DNA of 57,508 bases from Clostridia bacterium (lineage in GTDB: Bacteria > Bacillota > Clostridia > Oscillospirales > Acutalibacteraceae). Shown one piece after another: positions 71 through 8,946 of this stretch (positions within the stretch are counted from its first letter, which is position 1; each line of letters starts with the position of its first letter). The translations under genes were made by a program, and so were the position numbers. The DNA lies in the NCBI GenBank assembly GCA_017439585.1, contig JAFSIV010000009.1, positions 1 through 57,508 on the forward strand, written 5' to 3'. The notes below the pieces were generated by a model. The model was not told where the DNA came from. It made no database searches and worked only from the letters and a program-made list of their open reading frames with translations.

Positions 71-92
71 TTAAAGAAAGGAATTGATAACA

Positions 93-533
93 ATGGAAAA
101 GAAAATTAGAGGTTATGAAATTGATTTTACAACAAACACACTATATATGAATTATAAGTTTGCAGAAGCCGCCAATATTCCAAAATCTAAAGAATATTTA
201 TTAGTTGCAGAAATTCGCAAAGATTTTCCAAAGATTAAAATAATAACTCGCGCAGGTCGCAACGCAAAAACTTGCAATGCAAATAAGCGCTTAACCTATG
301 CTAATATGGAAAGTTATATTAAAGGACAGACCGAAATGAATGTTGATGAATTGCTTTATTTGTTTGAACTCACAAAGATTGAATCAAAATGTGCGAAAAG
401 TCCTTATGCTTTTGTTAGGGATTGGTTTGTGAAACAGTTCCCCAATTATAAAGAATGTAAAATTCTTAAAGAGGATAAAATTATTCCTTTTGCGGAAGCC
501 GCTCCCCAAGAGGATGAGGAAAAAGTATCTTAA
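93..533 (+). CDS. Conserved mobile-element protein of unknown function
   Basis: A 146-residue soluble protein with no signal peptide or membrane segment. The start is the ATG at 93, which has an AAAGAAAGGA ribosome site about ten bases upstream; a TTG at 84 in the same frame is less well placed. Recognisable stretches are MNYKFAEAA near the N-terminus, KRLTYANME in the middle and SPYAFVRDWFVKQFPNY near the C-terminus. From memory, similar proteins recur in Firmicutes integrative elements next to small DNA-binding proteins, but no biochemical role is known to me. The C-terminus is acidic. It lies 14 bases upstream of a winged-helix gene and is probably co-transcribed with it. Confidence 0.75.
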   Translation: MEKKIRGYEIDFTTNTLYMNYKFAEAANIPKSKEYLLVAEIRKDFPKIKIITRAGRNAKTCNANKRLTYANMESYIKGQTEMNVDELLYLFELTKIESKCAKSPYAFVRDWFVKQFPNYKECKILKEDKIIPFAEAAPQEDEEKVS

Positions 534-547
534 AAGGAGCGATTAAA

Positions 548-1117
548 ATGCAAGAAGATTTAATAACATTTGATATTGAATGGTTAAGCCTGCCGAAAGC
601 CGAATTTAAAATGTTGCTTATGATTGCAGACATAGGAAAAAATTTAGGAAATGCAAGTGATATGTGCAGATACTTTAACCATTCGATACAAAGTAAAACT
701 AAAAACAAATTGCGCAAGGCTTTAAAAAGTCTTGTCGAACAAGATGTTATCAATTTAGAATTAAACAAAAATAATTATACCGCAACTCTGCAAAAAGAAA
801 TATTGCAGGCAAATAAAGTTGATGTGAAACGCAAATATATAACTGAAATCCTACATCACAACTACACTCAATCTGTTGCTTGGGAAACTGTTTTAAAAGT
901 TTATATTTGGTTGCTTGATAATGGTAAAACCCTCTTTACCAATAGACAGATAAGTGTGTGTATAGGAGTTTCTGAAAGCACAATAACAGAAGCAAAAAAG
1001 GCATTAAAAGAGATGGGTGCTTTTGATATAGAGAAAGTTACAATTAAAGAGGGCGAACAATTTTATAGATGTGTTGGGCAAATAGCCAATGCTTCTGCCT
1101 TTTGGAATAATGTATAG
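548..1117 (+). CDS. Winged-helix-like DNA-binding protein (element replication or regulation)
   Basis: A 189-residue protein whose two halves each look like a winged helix. Residues 10-80 resemble a replication-initiator type fold (SLPKAEFKMLLMIADIG, then KALKSLVEQDVINLE). Residues 110-175 contain a clearer helix-turn-helix (FTNRQISVCIGVSESTITEAKKALKEMGAF). A strong AAAGGAG site lies upstream. The stop is TAG, immediately followed by a long terminator hairpin, so the TAG is probably the true end here; reading through it would add only 16 codons, inside the hairpin. It may act in replication or transcription control of the element. No catalytic motif is visible. Confidence 0.7.
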   Translation: MQEDLITFDIEWLSLPKAEFKMLLMIADIGKNLGNASDMCRYFNHSIQSKTKNKLRKALKSLVEQDVINLELNKNNYTATLQKEILQANKVDVKRKYITEILHHNYTQSVAWETVLKVYIWLLDNGKTLFTNRQISVCIGVSESTITEAKKALKEMGAFDIEKVTIKEGEQFYRCVGQIANASAFWNNV

Positions 1118-1119
1118 AA

Positions 1120-1186
1120 AGCAGTTACTTTTTACTTTGAATATATGGTGATATATTTTACGAAGTAAAAAGTAACCGCTTTTTTG
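1120..1186 (+). terminator. Intrinsic terminator after the winged-helix gene
   Basis: An 18-bp stem (1120-1137 with 1163-1180, one mismatch) is extended by an inner AATATAT/ATATATT stem and followed by a T-run from 1180. It begins three bases after the TAG stop. Confidence 0.9.
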
Positions 1187-1235
1187 TTTATCAAATATCT
1201 TTAATAATGCGTATGCAATTTTTATTATATAATGA

Positions 1236-1292
1236 AAACTGATAGTTTCAAAATCGCGGCACTTTGTGCCGCTTGATTTGAAATATCAGTTT
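1236..1292 (+). promoter_or_regulatory. Long hairpin in the leader of the amber-containing genes
   Basis: An imperfect hairpin of about 57 bases. The outer arms AAACTGATA (1236-1244) and TATCAGTTT (1284-1292) pair, an AT-rich middle pairs, and the top GCGGCAC/GTGCCGC (1256-1262 with 1266-1272) is a perfect 7-bp stem with a 3-base loop. No T-run follows, so it is not a simple terminator. It ends 13 bases before the AAAAGGAG site of the next gene, so it should sit in that gene's leader. A role in mRNA stability or translation control is inferred. Confidence 0.55.
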
Positions 1293-1317
1293 ATGAAATC
1301 CAAAAGGAGTGTAATTT

Positions 1318-1518
1318 ATGAATTTTATTGAATCAATGCAGTAGTATATTCCGCCTTATTATAGAAATATGCACTTGGATGGTTTTGAGCCTTGGGAAAT
1401 TCAAGTTGCAATACGCAAAAAACACCGCCTATTAGTAGAAGAACAAAGAAAAAAACGCGAAGAACTCGAAAACCAATTTAATAATATTAACATTATAAGT
1501 GAGATAAAAATAAAATGA
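1318..1518 (+). CDS. Small element protein with in-frame TAG at codon 9 (66 aa if read through)
   Basis: The ATG at 1318 has a near-perfect AAAAGGAG site eight bases upstream. The frame reads MNFIESMQ, meets TAG at 1342-1344, then stays open as YIPPYYRNMHLDGFEPWEIQ and a Lys/Glu-rich helical tail to TGA at 1516-1518. The part after the TAG looks like real protein: an aromatic motif, then an amphipathic coil. If TAG is read as Gln, as in genetic code 15, the N-terminus becomes MNFIESMQQYIPPYY. Other explanations are a nonsense mutation or reinitiation at the ATG at 1372. It overlaps the next gene by four bases (ATGA). No function is known. Confidence 0.55.
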
Positions 1519-1655
1519 GTTAGAATAATAACCAAAAGGACAAGAAGAAAAAGAAAAAATCTGTTTTAGAAGCAGAGATAATGCGTATAATGGAAAAAAG
1601 CCTTAAAAAGACTTTAGATTTAGCATTAGATGAGATTTTAAAAGACTTTAAATAA
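1515..1655 (+). CDS. Small coiled protein with in-frame TAG at codon 3 (46 aa if read through)
   Basis: It starts at the ATG inside the ATGA that overlaps the previous stop, the usual arrangement for translational coupling. The third codon (1521-1523) is TAG. The frame then stays open for 43 codons to TAA: a Lys-rich stretch (NNNQKDKKKKKK) followed by a clean amphipathic helix (VLEAEIMRIMEKSLKKTLDL). With TAG as Gln the start reads MSQNNNQKDKK. No other in-frame ATG exists before codon 23, so without readthrough most of this peptide would be lost. A terminator follows at once, so both TAG-bearing frames sit in one transcript. Confidence 0.5.
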
Positions 1656-1658
1656 AGA

Positions 1659-1727
1659 TTGCGGTTGCCGCTCAAATGAACTCTTAAACAAAATTAAGGG
1701 AACAAGAGCGCGGCAACCGCATTTTTT
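1659..1727 (+). terminator. Intrinsic terminator after the amber-containing pair
   Basis: GCGGTTGCC (1661-1669) pairs with GGCAACCGC (1712-1720), with further pairing inside, followed by ATTTTTTG. It ends the 1318-1655 transcript. Confidence 0.85.
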
Positions 1728-1730
1728 GTT

Positions 1731-1982
1731 TTTATTATCTAATCGAACACAACCGCAAAGATCGTCATTTTGGATTTTTCATGCTTTTGGTCGCGCGGAG
1801 TGCCACACAATAACACCAAAGGCGAAAACAGATACTTTTTGCCTGAAAGCATACCCCACTATTTTGTGCAAGTGTTCACAAAAAGGTGGTGTGAATTGTT
1901 TGAACAAAATCGGCGGTATTTTGTGCGGTTTTGCGTGGTTTTAAACTGTTCACAAAAGCAACTGTTTTATTGAACACCCTTT
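1731..1982. other. No supported gene; short repeated motifs
   Basis: Two overlapping forward open frames of about 70 codons exist but neither has a ribosome site or a recognisable protein. The motif GTTCACAAAA occurs twice (about 1874 and 1950), with TTGAACA nearby. These may be recognition repeats or the remains of an old gene. Nothing more can be supported. Confidence 0.4.
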
Positions 1983-2186
1983 TTATTCTTTTATATGCTC
2001 AATTAAATCCGCAGGTTGACAATCCAAAAGGTCGCAAAGTTTTTCAAAAATAGACCAAGAAACCATTTCGCCTTTTCTTATCTTTTGGAGCATTGCTTCA
2101 CCCATTATCTTTTCAGTTCTAATCTTGTTAGTGTTATAACCTTTTTCTTTAAGTGTTGCGAGAACATCAATTTTATATTTTAACAT
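1983..2186 (-). CDS. Xre-family repressor, HTH_26 type
   Basis: A 67-residue single-domain helix-turn-helix protein (LATLKEKGYNTNKIRTEKIMGE, then LQKIRKGEMVSWSIFEKLCDLLDCQPADLIEHI), typical of small Cro/C1-type regulators. The start is the ATG at 2186, preceded by AGAGGTGAAAGTT; a longer frame to 2234 runs into the operator region and is not used. It is divergent from the serine recombinase. Three matching 17-bp palindromic sites lie in the shared spacer, one inside the recombinase promoter. The likely role, by inference, is to repress the recombinase and itself. Confidence 0.88.
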   Translation of the reverse strand: MLKYKIDVLATLKEKGYNTNKIRTEKIMGEAMLQKIRKGEMVSWSIFEKLCDLLDCQPADLIEHIKE

Positions 2187-2221
2187 AACTTTCACCTCTG
2201 CAATTATATTACCACAAAATA

Positions 2222-2344: not shown

Positions 2345-2932
2345 ATGAATTATGGTTATGCAAGATGCAGCACAAATGAAACAAAGCAGGATATTAACAG
2401 ACAAGTCCGCGAACTGAAAGCGGCAGGTGCAGAGGAAATCTTTGTAGAGTATGAACATGGAGATTCTAAAATCAAGCAACAACAAGCCTTGATGTTTGAA
2501 GCGGCAAAACAAGGTGATACAATAATTGTTCTTGAAGTTCCGCGACTTGCAAGAAGCACACAACAACTTTGTGAGATTATCGACCTTGTAAGCACCAAAA
2601 GATTAAGACTAATAATTGTGGGAAGTATAACAATGGATTGCCGCGAGGGCAAAGCAGATCCAATGACCGAAGCCTTTTTACAAATGGCAGGTGTTTTTAG
2701 TCAATTAGAACTTGCTATGATAAGGGCGAGAGTTCGCTCAGGCATGGCAAATGCCAAAGCCAAAGGGAAAGTAATCGGCAGACCGCAAATGACTACACAA
2801 GACATTCCCCAAAACTTTATGCGACATTATCCCTCATACAAAGCGAAACAATTAAATATAAGCGAGTTTGCAAGGGTTTGCGATATGAGCAGAACAACCA
2901 TTTACAAATATCTTTCACTATTGGAAAACTAA
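2345..2932 (+). CDS. Small serine recombinase (resolvase/invertase family)
   Basis: 195 residues. The N-terminal catalytic domain (1-135) begins YARCSTNETKQDINRQVREL, with the nucleophile Ser9 after Arg7, and continues with LVSTKRLRLIIVGS and the long E-helix region LAMIRARVRSGMANAKAKGK. A Hin-type helix-turn-helix follows at 150-195 (ISEFARVCDMSRTTIYKYLSL). The length is that of resolvases and invertases, not of large serine integrases, so it more likely resolves or inverts DNA than integrates the element. An AAAGGAG site precedes the ATG. Operators in its promoter indicate repression by the divergent Xre protein. A bidirectional terminator follows. Confidence 0.95.
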   Translation: MNYGYARCSTNETKQDINRQVRELKAAGAEEIFVEYEHGDSKIKQQQALMFEAAKQGDTIIVLEVPRLARSTQQLCEIIDLVSTKRLRLIIVGSITMDCREGKADPMTEAFLQMAGVFSQLELAMIRARVRSGMANAKAKGKVIGRPQMTTQDIPQNFMRHYPSYKAKQLNISEFARVCDMSRTTIYKYLSLLEN

Positions 2933-2971: not shown

Positions 2972-3508
2972 TTAGTCTTTTATTTTATCATACCAACCAT
3001 CTTCGCCAAAAGCATCATTTTGGCAATCTTTACACCATTTGCCACGCATATCATCTTCAGGCACTCTGTCACCGCACATAGCACAAGTTTCGTAATTTGT
3101 TTTTGAAGATTTATTTGCATTATCATTCCATCCAAAGAATGTTACTCCAATTAACCATGCAATAAATAAAGTAATAGCAAATGTTATGAAAGTTATAAAT
3201 AAAAAATTTGGTTGTTTTTTACGATCTTTTTCTTCAATTACTTTTCTTTCTTTTTCAACGCTAACAAAATCTAAAATATATTTTGCGGCTTTTTCTCCTT
3301 CTTCTCGTTGATTCTGTTGCCTTAAAGGATAATAAAGAATTTCAAAGTCATACATTCCACTTCCCAAAAATATCGTAATTGCACCATATTTATCATTGGG
3401 TTTTGGTGTGCGATGGTTAGCGTCTATAATTGATGATAATGGTATCTCTTTTTTATTCACAATAATCTTATCATCAGTTAATGTCCAATTTCTAATACTT
3501 ACATACAT
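2972..3508 (-). CDS. Single-pass membrane protein with C-terminal zinc ribbon
   Basis: 178 residues from the ATG at 3508, which follows AGGGGGAAAAATT; the longer frame to 3589 covers a hairpin and is not used. Residues 1-85 form a small beta-rich domain (WTLTDDKIIVNKKEIPLSSI) that resembles short PH-like bacterial domains. A Lys/Glu-rich linker follows, then one hydrophobic segment (FLFITFITFAITLFIAWLIG, about residues 102-121), then a two-pair zinc ribbon CAMCGDRV...KWCKDC near the C-terminus. Function unknown. A terminator-like hairpin in its leader suggests attenuation. It is convergent with the recombinase and divergent from the WYL regulator. Confidence 0.75.
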   Translation of the reverse strand: MYVSIRNWTLTDDKIIVNKKEIPLSSIIDANHRTPKPNDKYGAITIFLGSGMYDFEILYYPLRQQNQREEGEKAAKYILDFVSVEKERKVIEEKDRKKQPNFLFITFITFAITLFIAWLIGVTFFGWNDNANKSSKTNYETCAMCGDRVPEDDMRGKWCKDCQNDAFGEDGWYDKIKD

Positions 3509-3521
3509 AATTTTTCCCCCT

Positions 3522-3750: not shown

Positions 3751-3778
3751 TTGCTATTGGTTTGTTTTGTGGTATGAT
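3751..3778 (+). promoter_or_regulatory. Promoter of the WYL regulator gene
   Basis: TTGCTA (3751-3756), 16 bases, TATGAT (3773-3778), about 18 bases upstream of the chosen ATG at 3797. Confidence 0.55.
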
Positions 3779-3796
3779 ATAAAAGAGGTGTTGCAA

Positions 3797-4849
3797 ATGG
3801 CAGGAAGAAGTTATAACCAAAGGCACAAGGCATTACTTGTTTTTCAAATTCTATTAAGACAAACAGATAAAGACCACCCTTTGAAGATAGGCGAAATCAA
3901 AAAACAACTATCTAATTATGGAATAGAAGCAAATGTACATTCTATTGGTCGAGATATAAAAGAATTACAAAGGCTTTATTCGGCAGAAGTAATTAACGAT
4001 TTTGACGAGGTTGAAGATGGTGAGCGGATACCATATAAAATTGAATATGATGGGTCAGGTGAAAGAGGATATAAAGTAACCAAAAGACCTTGCAAATTTA
4101 GCGATTTACAACTATTGGTTGAATGCATACATTCCGCTCGATTTATATCGCAAAAGCAAGAAAAAAGATTGTTTGAAACAATAGCAGAATTTTGTAGTGA
4201 ATGGCAATATCAAGACTTGAATAATGAAACATATTTAGTTGACCGCTCAAAGACTAATAATAACAATATACTTTCATACATAAACACAATAAATGCCGCT
4301 ATCAAAGAAAATAAAAAGATTAAATTTAAGTATATGAAATACACCCTGCAAAACCGCGAGGCGCAAACACCACGCAGAAATGGCGCTTTTTATACTGTTA
4401 GTCCTTTTAAAATACTTATAAATGAGGGCAATTTTTATCTTTTAGCCTACAATGGAAAATATATAACAACATACCGAATTGACAGAATGGATAATGTTAT
4501 AAAATCAATAGAACTCCGCGAGGGAGCGGAGTTCTACAAAGATATAAATATGCAAGATTTTACAAAGCGCGTTTTTTCTATGTTTGGTGGCGAAGAAAAG
4601 AATGTTACAATAAGGTTCACAAATGACCTTCTCGACATCGTTATCGACCGATTTGGAGCAAATGGAGCAAGTTATACCCCTGATGATGATAAACATTTTA
4701 AAATTCATGTAAATGTTGAAGTTAGTAATATGTTTTACTCTTGGATTTGCGGCTTCCGCAAGAAAGCAACAATATTAAATCCGCCCGAAGTGGTCGAAGA
4801 TTTTAAGACATTCCTTGCCGACATCAACCAAAAGTATGAAAGTTGTTAA
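3797..4849 (+). CDS. WYL-domain transcriptional regulator
   Basis: 350 residues from the ATG at 3797, preceded by AGAGGTG; an upstream in-frame ATG at 3767 lacks a site. The N-terminal 70 residues form a winged helix (RHKALLVFQILLRQT...SIGRDIKELQRLY). The WYL domain runs from about 160 to 260 (NTINAAIKENKKIKFKY; YTVSPFKILINEGNFYLLAY; TTYRIDRMDNV), with Arg/Tyr residues that in this family bind nucleic acid or nucleotide ligands. A WCX-like C-terminal domain follows. WYL regulators often control mobile-element and defence genes. A divergent membrane-protein gene and a 111-base inverted-repeat region lie upstream. Confidence 0.92.
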   Translation: MAGRSYNQRHKALLVFQILLRQTDKDHPLKIGEIKKQLSNYGIEANVHSIGRDIKELQRLYSAEVINDFDEVEDGERIPYKIEYDGSGERGYKVTKRPCKFSDLQLLVECIHSARFISQKQEKRLFETIAEFCSEWQYQDLNNETYLVDRSKTNNNNILSYINTINAAIKENKKIKFKYMKYTLQNREAQTPRRNGAFYTVSPFKILINEGNFYLLAYNGKYITTYRIDRMDNVIKSIELREGAEFYKDINMQDFTKRVFSMFGGEEKNVTIRFTNDLLDIVIDRFGANGASYTPDDDKHFKIHVNVEVSNMFYSWICGFRKKATILNPPEVVEDFKTFLADINQKYESC

Positions 4850-4939: not shown

Positions 4940-5142
4940 TTGACATTTGTTTGTTTTGATTCTATAATGTGAGCAGACATTAACACAAATGATGTGTTCA
5001 ATGTTCGGTTTATTCACCCCTCAAAAGCGCAGGAACTGCACTTTATGTTGAGATGATGGGTCTTATCGGTGCAGGTAACAACCCCATGGTTGGTATGACT
5101 GTTGCTTGCGCAGTTGCAGTTAACGAAGCGCTTAATAAGTAA
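4940..5142 (+). repeat. 203-bp module, copy 1 (promoter plus gene tail)
   Basis: This is collinear, without indels, with 6238-6440. It begins with a consensus promoter, TTGACA (4940-4945), 17 bases, TATAAT (4963-4968), runs through about 60 bases without a conserved reading frame, and ends with a 38-codon protein tail to TAA at 5142. The tail is about 93% identical between copies and the leading part about 83% by eye. Confidence 0.85.
5029..5142 (+). pseudogene. 3' tail of a GGGtGRT-like gene, copy 1
   Basis: The frame reads AGTALYVEMMGLIGAGNN, then PMVGMTVACAVAVNEALNK and stop. This matches my memory of the C-terminus of GGGtGRT-family proteins (VEMMGLIGMGNNPMVG...). The frame is open back to 4993 but has no start codon before the ATG at 5053 and no ribosome site, so it is a detached gene end or a very short peptide of about 29 residues. 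The second copy differs by seven synonymous changes and one Ala/Val change, so both tails evolved as coding sequence. The family name is moderately certain. Confidence 0.6.
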
Positions 5143-7966: not shown

Positions 7967-8386
7967 ATGTTAAAGATTTCTGGAAATAAATTAGTCTTAA
8001 CTTTTGGATGCATTTTGTCAATTTGCACAGGTACATTAATATATGCGTTGTTTAGGGAGAATACATATATTTCTAATATAATTATGTGTTTCGTTGATTT
8101 AACTTTTTTGAAAAGCATATTTATATGCCTTGAAAATAGTTTTACAAAATACTATTTGCCTGATTTTTTATGGGCATTTAGTCTTTCTTGTGGACTCTGT
8201 GTTATATTAAATCCTAAAAAAAATATAGATGTATTTTTATATTCAGGAATATCTTTCTTTTTCGGTTTAATATATGAAATATTACAAATCTGCAAAGTGA
8301 TTAATGGAACAGGAGATATTATTGACATAGCGCTATATTTTCTGGCTTCTTTAACAGTAAGTTTAATTTCATTAAGGAGAGTTTAA
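7967..8386 (+). CDS. VanZ-like small membrane protein, probably leaderless mRNA
   Basis: 139 residues with four likely membrane helices (about 9-27, 34-52, 66-82 and 88-105, with a last hydrophobic stretch at 118-135). The motifs YLPDFLWAFSLSC, GLIYEILQICKVINGTGDIIDIALYFLA fit VanZ-like proteins, in which a helix pair is followed by a DxxD pattern. The exact role is not known; VanZ itself lowers teicoplanin binding. The ATG begins only six bases after the -10 hexamer and has no ribosome site. It is followed one base later by a DUF5067 gene, so the two form an operon under the palindrome-bearing promoter. Confidence 0.75.
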   Translation: MLKISGNKLVLTFGCILSICTGTLIYALFRENTYISNIIMCFVDLTFLKSIFICLENSFTKYYLPDFLWAFSLSCGLCVILNPKKNIDVFLYSGISFFFGLIYEILQICKVINGTGDIIDIALYFLASLTVSLISLRRV

Positions 8387-8387
8387 A

Positions 8388-8879
8388 ATGAAAAAAGTTA
8401 TCAGTTTGTTTTTGGCAATTTTATTAATTGGTGCTTATGGAATATTTGCACTTGGCAGTGGCGAATCAGAGACAGTTGAGCAAGGAAAAGGGACCGTACA
8501 ATCAGAAGAAAATAAGTCAAATTTAGGAGATTATAAGGTAGAAATACTAAGTTGCAGACTTGCAAAATCATTCGATGATAAATCAGTTGTTATTGTTAAA
8601 TATAATTTTACTAATTATAGTGAACAGCCAACCGCTTTCTTCACAGCTTTTGATACCATAGCATATCAAAATGATATTGGTCTAAATAATGCTTATATTT
8701 TAAAAGATAATGCTAATTATTCTGCTGATAATCAAACTAAAGAAATTAAAAAAGATGCAAATTTAGATGTTGAAGTCGCTTACGAACTTAATGATACAAC
8801 CACCGACATAGTAGTTGAGGTTGAAGAACTTTTCAGTTTTAGCGATAAAAAAATAACCAAAACTTTTTCGATAAAATAG
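8388..8879 (+). CDS. Secreted DUF5067 protein
   Basis: 163 residues with an AAGGAGAG site upstream. The N-terminal signal sequence KKVISLFLAILLIGAYGIFAL is followed by GSGES and a short acidic linker; there is no lipobox Cys. Residues 45-160 match DUF5067: YKVEILSCRLAKSFDDKSVV, VKYNFTNYSEQPTAFFTAF, YQNDIGLNNAYIL and a final VEVEELFSFS strand. DUF5067 is an immunoglobulin-like extracellular domain of Gram-positive bacteria with unknown ligand. It forms an operon with the VanZ-like gene. The stop codon is TAG, which shows that the host uses TAG as a normal stop. Confidence 0.88.
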   Translation: MKKVISLFLAILLIGAYGIFALGSGESETVEQGKGTVQSEENKSNLGDYKVEILSCRLAKSFDDKSVVIVKYNFTNYSEQPTAFFTAFDTIAYQNDIGLNNAYILKDNANYSADNQTKEIKKDANLDVEVAYELNDTTTDIVVEVEELFSFSDKKITKTFSIK

Positions 8880-8897
8880 AAAATTAAATAAAGCTAG

Positions 8898-8946
8898 AAA
8901 AACGGACACATAAATAGGTTGTAGCCCATTATGTGTCCGTTTTTAT
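8898..8946 (+). terminator. Intrinsic terminator
   Basis: A 14-bp stem, AACGGACACATAA with its complement TTATGTGTCCGTT (about 8900-8912 with 8929-8942), then TTTATTTTT. Confidence 0.93.

Follow-up and report, generated by a model that had tools for sequence, protein, structure and literature searches.

In-frame TAG codons in a small module of a clostridial integrative element, possibly gated by the genetic code of a phage

The DNA analysed here (the window, 57,508 nucleotides) is contig 5 of a 1.49-Mb draft genome of a Clostridia bacterium, and its start falls inside a mobile element. Near that start lie two small coupled genes (Table 1), each broken by an in-frame TAG soon after its ATG. 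In gene 1 the ATG opens eight codons (MNFIESMQ) that run into the TAG, after which the frame is open until TGA (1516-1518); gene 2 reads MS, TAG, then 43 codons to TAA (1653-1655), and its ATGA overlap with gene 1 lies at 1515-1518. A prior sequence-only reading had singled out this pair for its ribosome site, early TAGs and coupling, and its coordinates proved exact. Neither gene matched a Pfam or NCBIfam model above cut-off, nor anything in PHROG or PADLOC.

Several smaller features surround the pair. The terminator-like element behind the Rep-like gene consists of a long inverted repeat and matches itself in reverse; the window terminator drew weak Rfam miRNA matches, which scored far under the cut-offs and were rejected. 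A short frame 3' of the WYL gene (~5030-5142) resembles part of a frame that lies close to the element in a related locus (L036, 12443-12658) and is possibly the insertion target of the element. The hairpin ahead of gene 1 has counterparts elsewhere: when 115 bases upstream were folded for each of 25 genes, 18 had a strong hairpin (z <= -3.9, measured against crude block shuffles) and seven did not. These hairpins, upstream of gene 1 or of a 110-aa gene in various loci, differ in sequence and are similar in build; our guess is that they stabilise the message.

Table 1. Features of the element part of the window, and promoter-motif sites in related element loci
Feature	Locus	Position	Strand	Remark
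DUFb-like element protein, 146 aa	window	93..533	+	without in-frame stop; related elements have tandem paralogues
Rep-like winged-helix protein, 189 aa	window	548..1117	+	weak match to phage replication-initiation families; ordinary TAG at end
Intrinsic-terminator-like inverted repeat	window	1118..1185	+	directly 3' of the ordinary TAG of the Rep-like gene
TATAAT, likely -10 box	window	1228..1233	+	T-tract before it; partial match to the phage-like promoter of other elements
Long hairpin, probably 5'UTR	window	1236..1292	+	immediately 3' of the -10 box; z about -4 against crude shuffles
Ribosome binding site AAAAGGAG	window	1302..1309	+	
Gene 1	window	1318..1518	+	66 aa if TAG = Q; amber codon 1342-1344
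Gene 2	window	1515..1655	+	46 aa if TAG = Q; amber codon 1521-1523; ATGA overlap with gene 1
Intrinsic-terminator-like inverted repeat	window	1657..1728	+	3' of gene 2
Small HTH regulator	window	1983..2192	-	convergent to the module; Cro/C1-type homologue in L035, 55% identical
Serine recombinase, 195 aa	window	2345..2932	+	recurrent among elements
Cargo gene, 181 aa	window	2972..3517	-	without Pfam match
WYL-domain regulator, 360 aa	window	3767..4849	+	recurrent among elements
Motif site (strict, loose or blastn)	L135	3652-3691		
Motif site (strict, loose or blastn)	L083	9535-9596		
Motif site (strict, loose or blastn)	L082	10382-10438		
Motif site (strict, loose or blastn)	L136	5268-5297		
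Motif site (strict, loose or blastn)	L137	6308-6338		
Motif site (strict, loose or blastn)	L138	3460		
Motif site (strict, loose or blastn)	L039	6069		
Motif site (strict, loose or blastn)	L086	5369		
Motif site (strict, loose or blastn)	L088	8388		
Motif site (strict, loose or blastn)	L035	10117		
Motif site (strict, loose or blastn)	L037	10300		

Both genes are part of a small module of an integrative element that is present in other genomes of the same taxonomic order. The common layout comprises a tyrosine integrase, which in several loci lies close to a tRNA gene, DUF proteins that are paralogues of one another, a Rep-like protein and the small TAG genes, together with a convergent HTH gene, a protein of ~91 aa with resemblance to a portion of YqaJ-type exonucleases, DUF6809 in some cases, a serine recombinase, cargo that varies and a WYL regulator; it is not complete everywhere, related loci having much of it in common. 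Cargo differs by element (a trypsin-like protein in L040, an S-layer protein in L042, a radical SAM protein in L045, and unknowns) and sits between the recombinase and WYL genes or nearby. At one locus, L142, an intact tRNA-Val gene and a partial copy of it enclose ~8.6 kb, with both ends of the element visible. A near-copy of the window's element, L005, was assembled separately; it is 91% identical over window positions 72-1976 and retains both TAGs. Its contig is filed under a cyanobacterial MAG, reflecting either misbinning or wide transfer.

Gene 1 itself is rare: it matched 2 of 200 genomes of the family (one its own) and only its own among 70 genomes of the genus, L005 was the sole match among genome contigs, and phages, plasmids and viral contigs gave none. 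The search with a single-ORF homologue matched six of 398 family genomes, and an alignment search nine of 394 order genomes; in each set one match was unrelated when read. Most further elements came from the 91-aa neighbour, sought in 394, 87 and 220 genomes; its weaker matches (roughly E above 1e-26) lie mostly outside the sample, and L092-L099 are outside the counts. A nuclease found in relatives (see below) matched one of 216 order genomes, already known, and its alignment matched nothing in the phage collection. Likewise without match were plasmids and phages for a TAG-free homologue, viral contigs and plasmids for the Rep protein (in the window only weakly similar to replication-initiator families), and viral contigs for two alignments (A1 and A2). 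Two genome matches, L019 and L029, were unrelated once read and were dropped.

Besides genes 1 and 2, three further TAG-bearing families belong to the module: the 110-aa protein, a nuclease and a large putative replication protein. The nuclease is of the GIY-YIG type, with PF01541 above cut-off in L137 and L086 and just short of it in L045 (22.1 vs 22.6 bits). Among solved structures its profile is nearest to T4 endonuclease II (PDB 2wsh, E 2e-7), from which it differs in being TAG-interrupted in its own host. Its seven copies in the counted set hold 21 TAGs in aligned parts, two to four per gene; clearly internal ones number at most three per gene, and two genes have three. One copy, on a viral contig (L148), has three TAGs and adjoins an integrase and standard-code phage-like genes; two relatives found later on viral contigs, outside the counted set (L149 and L150), have none. 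No nuclease gene is in view in the window's element. The large protein gave no match in family and structure searches, and has motifs that we take to be reminiscent of archaeo-eukaryotic primases.

In-frame stops were counted by tblastn, with TAG, TAA and TGA all read through alike. At least one of the five module families is present in 28 of 36 loci, and 22 of these 28 carry an in-frame TAG; the 28 are partly related (L005 is a near-copy of the window and L037 of L035, and a single genome contains both L136 and L143). Six have a module family and no TAG (L035, L037, L041, L043, L044, L087), and eight counted loci have none of the families (L084, L085, L088, L089, L091, L134, L139, L140). Altogether the families contain 52 in-frame TAGs; TAA and TGA are absent from their interior, and the single TGA in the module listing is the end codon of a gene. 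Four of the TAGs, in the nucleases of L045, L136, L137 and L143, are among the final 11 codons and perhaps serve as ordinary stops, which leaves 48. Homology was the guide for genes 1 and 2; the other three families were first spotted with TAG read as sense, so that their TAG rates are a high, biased sample. TAG is thus the only stop reassigned in the module families, with TAA and TGA still stops, as in genetic code 15.

The rest of the element looks different. Eight other gene sets, covering 35,526 aligned codons, hold one TAG, two TAA (residues 3/332 and 349/350) and one TGA (residue 12/338). Recoding therefore does not extend across many genes of the element, as it does in a code-15 phage, and the earlier proposal that any special decoding is limited to the element is supported, here for a part of it. 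The single outlying TAG is at residue 129 of the aligned stretch of the L142 integrase (8039-8923), which matches Phage_integrase under table 15; excision of that element might itself be amber-gated. Beyond the five families, and not among the 52, are further TAG-bearing ORFs in L086 (one), L088 (two) and L137 (one).

A crude neutral simulation gives scale to these counts. Thirteen member sequences contain 26 TAGs, of which four lie near the gene end and are perhaps ordinary stops, and are free of internal TAA and TGA; in simulation each run gave the same sequences ~17 TAA, 17 TAG and 11 TGA, with TAA or TGA stops in every one of the 300 runs. Counting ORFs with TAG, TAA or TGA taken as sense (44, 43 and 57 ORFs) was tried and did not separate the codes, because chance extensions dominate; on the sequences compared, the homology-based stop count does. 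The sequence-only reading had called two adjacent early TAGs unusual for decay. On its own the pair is weak evidence; the L005 copy, with both TAGs kept, and the TAG-only stops of relatives, at other positions, raise the case above chance. Two observations that would have told against it were looked for: the TAG-free single-ORF relatives begin upstream of the TAG column rather than downstream of it, and the module frames are not full of other stops.

Alignment with homologues also bears on the residue read at TAG, which the same reading had suggested to be glutamine. Where the nearest relative is at least 70% identical (13 sites), the facing residue is Q at nine, T at two, E at one and K at one (by column, Q at six of nine). 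The 110-aa orthologues of L082 and L083 are reciprocal, the TAG of each lying opposite a Gln of the other, and in a set of three nucleases with 73-90% identity the two swap at three columns. At 50% identity or more (30 sites) the tally is Q 12, K 9, E 4, T 2 and one each of D, S and L, and at more distant sites Lys or Glu faces TAG as often as Gln; the large-protein alignment is poor in places, and facing residues there are weak. Mean BLOSUM support, over 52 scorable of 55 listed sites with L005 duplicates included, puts Q (0.96) narrowly above E (0.92) and K (0.80), followed by S (0.02). TAG in the module thus reads as a sense codon, with Gln the best reading, as expected for code 15, although the distant sites would not tell Gln from Glu or Lys.

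Phages with this code and a predicted Clostridia host are known. PhAss-1 (OQ749652), placed in a code-15 clade, has three annotated suppressor (CUA) tRNAs. The portions of its description that we draw on (PMC10607447) assign these tRNAs to Gln, predict a Clostridia host, count 41 ORFs containing TAG and report a primase 75% identical to its own in an Oscillospiraceae genome. Such tRNAs are known from code-15 gut phages more widely, 69.4% of 180 being of the Gln type, according to the portion of PMC10879173 that treats them. The proteins of the module gave little against phAss-1: a single nuclease query, and no other, had a borderline match (E 0.01).

A promoter motif links the phage and some elements. 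By blastn of 13 element loci against phAss-1, six (L082, L083, L135, L136, L137, L143) have short matches to a repeat upstream of phage genes and tRNAs, and L142 gave tRNA matches. This repeated sequence is a promoter of sigma-A-like type, made up of TTGACA, an A-tract, a T-tract and TATAAT. Its loose form occurs 27 times in the 136 kb of phAss-1, 13 times in the 36 element loci, once in 102.7 kb of other loci and not at all in the 57.5-kb window, whose own promoter has the TATAAT and T-tract and misses the full motif. Ten of the 13 are at the module, on the strand of the 91-aa gene and 0.5-3.7 kb ahead of it, and three are elsewhere; these ten fall in ~10% of the strand-length searched (binomial 3e-8; Fisher against plain TATAAT 3e-8), figures to be read with the motif having been picked after the matches were seen, some elements being related, and L035 and L037, among the ten, lacking TAG. 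The shared motif could be a generally strong promoter. In exact form it occurs in three viral contigs only, one with two CUA tRNAs. The viral contig IMGVR_UViG_3300029904_000022 (L163/L165), with two CUA tRNAs and the phAss-1 motif, is possibly a relative of phAss-1.

How, then, would the TAGs be read? The element could be a recoded prophage or satellite with a suppressor of its own, distant or undetected, such that recoding would time its own genes and no invader would be sensed. Some recoded phages have no visible suppressor tRNAs, as the part of PMC10607447 on this point states, and in L148 a TAG-bearing nuclease neighbours the integrase on a phage-like contig whose genes follow the standard code. 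Against this, the genes with TAG make up a small module rather than a late operon, and the ~8.6 kb between the tRNA-Val copies of L142 contain no CUA tRNA. Nor did ARAGORN find one in the window or any other scanned element locus, or Rfam in 11 loci, where the tRNAs are Val and Ser; a weak tRNA of L142, at first a suppressor candidate, proved to be the partial tRNA-Val copy. In the scanned loci no CUA suppressor tRNA was seen; such a tRNA is a trait of code-15 phages, if not a universal one. The earlier suggestion of a suppressor carried on the element is not supported and would now call for a distant or undetected gene. We consider this explanation unlikely.

Still less likely, in our judgement, is a CUA tRNA (Gln or Pyl) made constitutively by the host or another resident element, with the genes always translated. 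The search for such a tRNA that the sequence-only reading had called for came back empty: a T-arm/anticodon pattern applied to 18 host genomes (11 + 7) picked up nothing beyond tRNA-Arg(TCT), one tRNA-Leu and sites at which ARAGORN calls no tRNA. On the control phage phAss-1 the pattern recovers two of three CUA tRNAs (ARAGORN, three of three); it covers part of the CUA forms, and the genomes are mostly drafts, some incomplete, which leaves this explanation some room. Against it, neighbouring genes end in TAG normally. Four of the 49 window ORFs of at least 120 aa do so, and within elements TAG ends Rep genes (window, L005, L035, L037), HTH genes (L083, L135) and recombinase genes (L038, L041) at or next to the homologous end, in keeping with the earlier remark that the host uses TAG as a normal stop. 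In genes 1 and 2 and the 110-aa family the stop past the aligned end is TAA or TGA only; in the nucleases the four late TAGs blur which stop is normal. For pyrrolysine in particular, the fixed UAG position expected of a pyrrolysine protein is not seen, positions varying among relatives.

A further possibility is that the TAGs are leaky stops, passed at a basal rate by near-cognate tRNAs to give a deliberately low dose of protein. Most TAG-bearing copies of genes 1 and 2 do have a single TAG, and their products are small and possibly regulatory or toxic. With three clearly internal TAGs in each of two nuclease genes, however, basal output would be almost nil, which makes leakiness an implausible route. 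The element shares with programmed stop-codon readthrough the passing of a stop codon for a longer protein. In programmed readthrough the position of the stop and its cis context are usually conserved; in the element TAG positions vary among relatives (12 columns in the nuclease, two in the 110-aa family, 10 in gene 1, five in gene 2), several TAGs per gene are possible, and the next base is mixed (A 25, G 13, T 8, C 7). Regulated amber readthrough of the ordinary kind, another of the earlier suggestions, is therefore not supported, and leaky stops we regard as more improbable than either explanation above.

Finally, selection can be compared with decay. After the first TAG, dN/dS is 0.06, 0.14, 0.11 and 0.21 in pairs of TAG-bearing nucleases, 0.14, 0.24 and 0.24 in three pairs of the 110-aa family, and 0.23 (L136/L143) and 0.24 (L137/L143) in gene 1. 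Gene 2 of L136/L143, which has no TAG, gives 0.07, several other gene 2 pairs being saturated at synonymous sites, and the large protein 0.56. Constraint past the TAG is thus strong in the nuclease and 110-aa families and fair in some gene 1 pairs. The window's gene 1 by itself gives no clear sign of it in comparison with L005 (five nonsynonymous changes, no synonymous), and the L035/L036 pair has dN/dS 0.7 overall and 1.5 past the TAG. The unclear constraint in these gene 1 pairs, the fit of TAG = Gln and the existence of code-15 phages with predicted Clostridia hosts (PMC10607447, in the part cited above) would suit decaying relics captured from such a phage, their TAGs once sense and now dead stops, but we think this very improbable, as it was also in its earlier form, since dN/dS past the TAGs is 0.06-0.24 in two families rather than relaxed, internal TAA and TGA are absent although some pairs are at dS ~0.4-2, and module TAGs recur in many elements whose remaining genes have standard frames. 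Judged by comparison among loci, the TAGs are sense, confined to the module with one exception, and not decay.

We think it probable instead that the module is amber-gated, staying silent until a tRNA that reads UAG as Gln arrives in trans, most likely from a code-15 phage. The message has good ribosome sites; since UAG is a stop codon for the host and for the remainder of the element, translation in an uninfected cell would halt at the UAGs inside the frames. If TAG is sense at some time, a suppressor is present at that time; as TAG stops neighbouring genes and the hosts searched yielded no CUA tRNA, the simplest account has the suppressor come temporarily from outside, and we infer the phage as supplier along with the timing and the response. 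Full-length products would appear only with a UAG-reading glutamine tRNA, most likely the tRNA-Gln(CUA) of a code-15 phage: the two small proteins in the window and, in relatives, also the GIY-YIG nuclease and the large putative replication protein. Gating would not be universal, because six of the 28 loci have no TAG in their module families.

An amber-gated element would sense the phage by its genetic code and might answer as a satellite, a defence island or both; the presence of a nuclease speaks for interference, the layout as an integrating element for a satellite. More tentatively, and with rather less than even confidence, we propose that the whole may be a bacterial immune or satellite system triggered by the invader's genetic code, in which a nuclease, small proteins and a replication protein would be encoded by UAG-blocked messages, freed only by the suppressor tRNA with which a code-15 phage translates its own proteins. 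UAGs in series would hold such a system tightly off, and phage-like promoters may form a second control layer.

Known systems resemble this in part. Code-15 phages such as phAss-1 share with the module in-frame TAG read as Gln, Gln at TAG sites in relatives and the A-tract/T-tract promoter motif; phAss-1, in the account cited, has TAG in 41 ORFs and CUA tRNAs of its own, whereas here a recoded module of few genes sits in a standard-code integrative element where such a tRNA was not seen. Phage-inducible islands and satellites (PICI, and PLE of Vibrio cholerae) are likewise small and integrating, and carry an integrase and Rep-like proteins, some members having a nuclease as well; the element agrees with them in its proposed answer to a particular phage and in its integration by a recombinase at tRNA genes (the integrase beside a tRNA gene in several loci, the tRNA-Val copy of L142). 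Known phage satellites sense helper proteins, while the signal proposed for the element is the genetic code of the phage. No description of such a system was found in the titles and abstracts of the open-licence PMC papers that literature searches brought up (preprints not included). What would be new in kind is the proposed sensing mechanism; the comparative facts by themselves amount to a new variant of code-15 recoding.

Standard gene callers truncate or miss the TAG-interrupted genes of the module. If the proposal is true, the genetic code itself would serve as a signal of infection, in bacteria that use TAG as a stop and carry genes readable solely in the code of the phage. This would suggest one cost of recoding, which a recoded phage could hardly escape unless it gave up its code.
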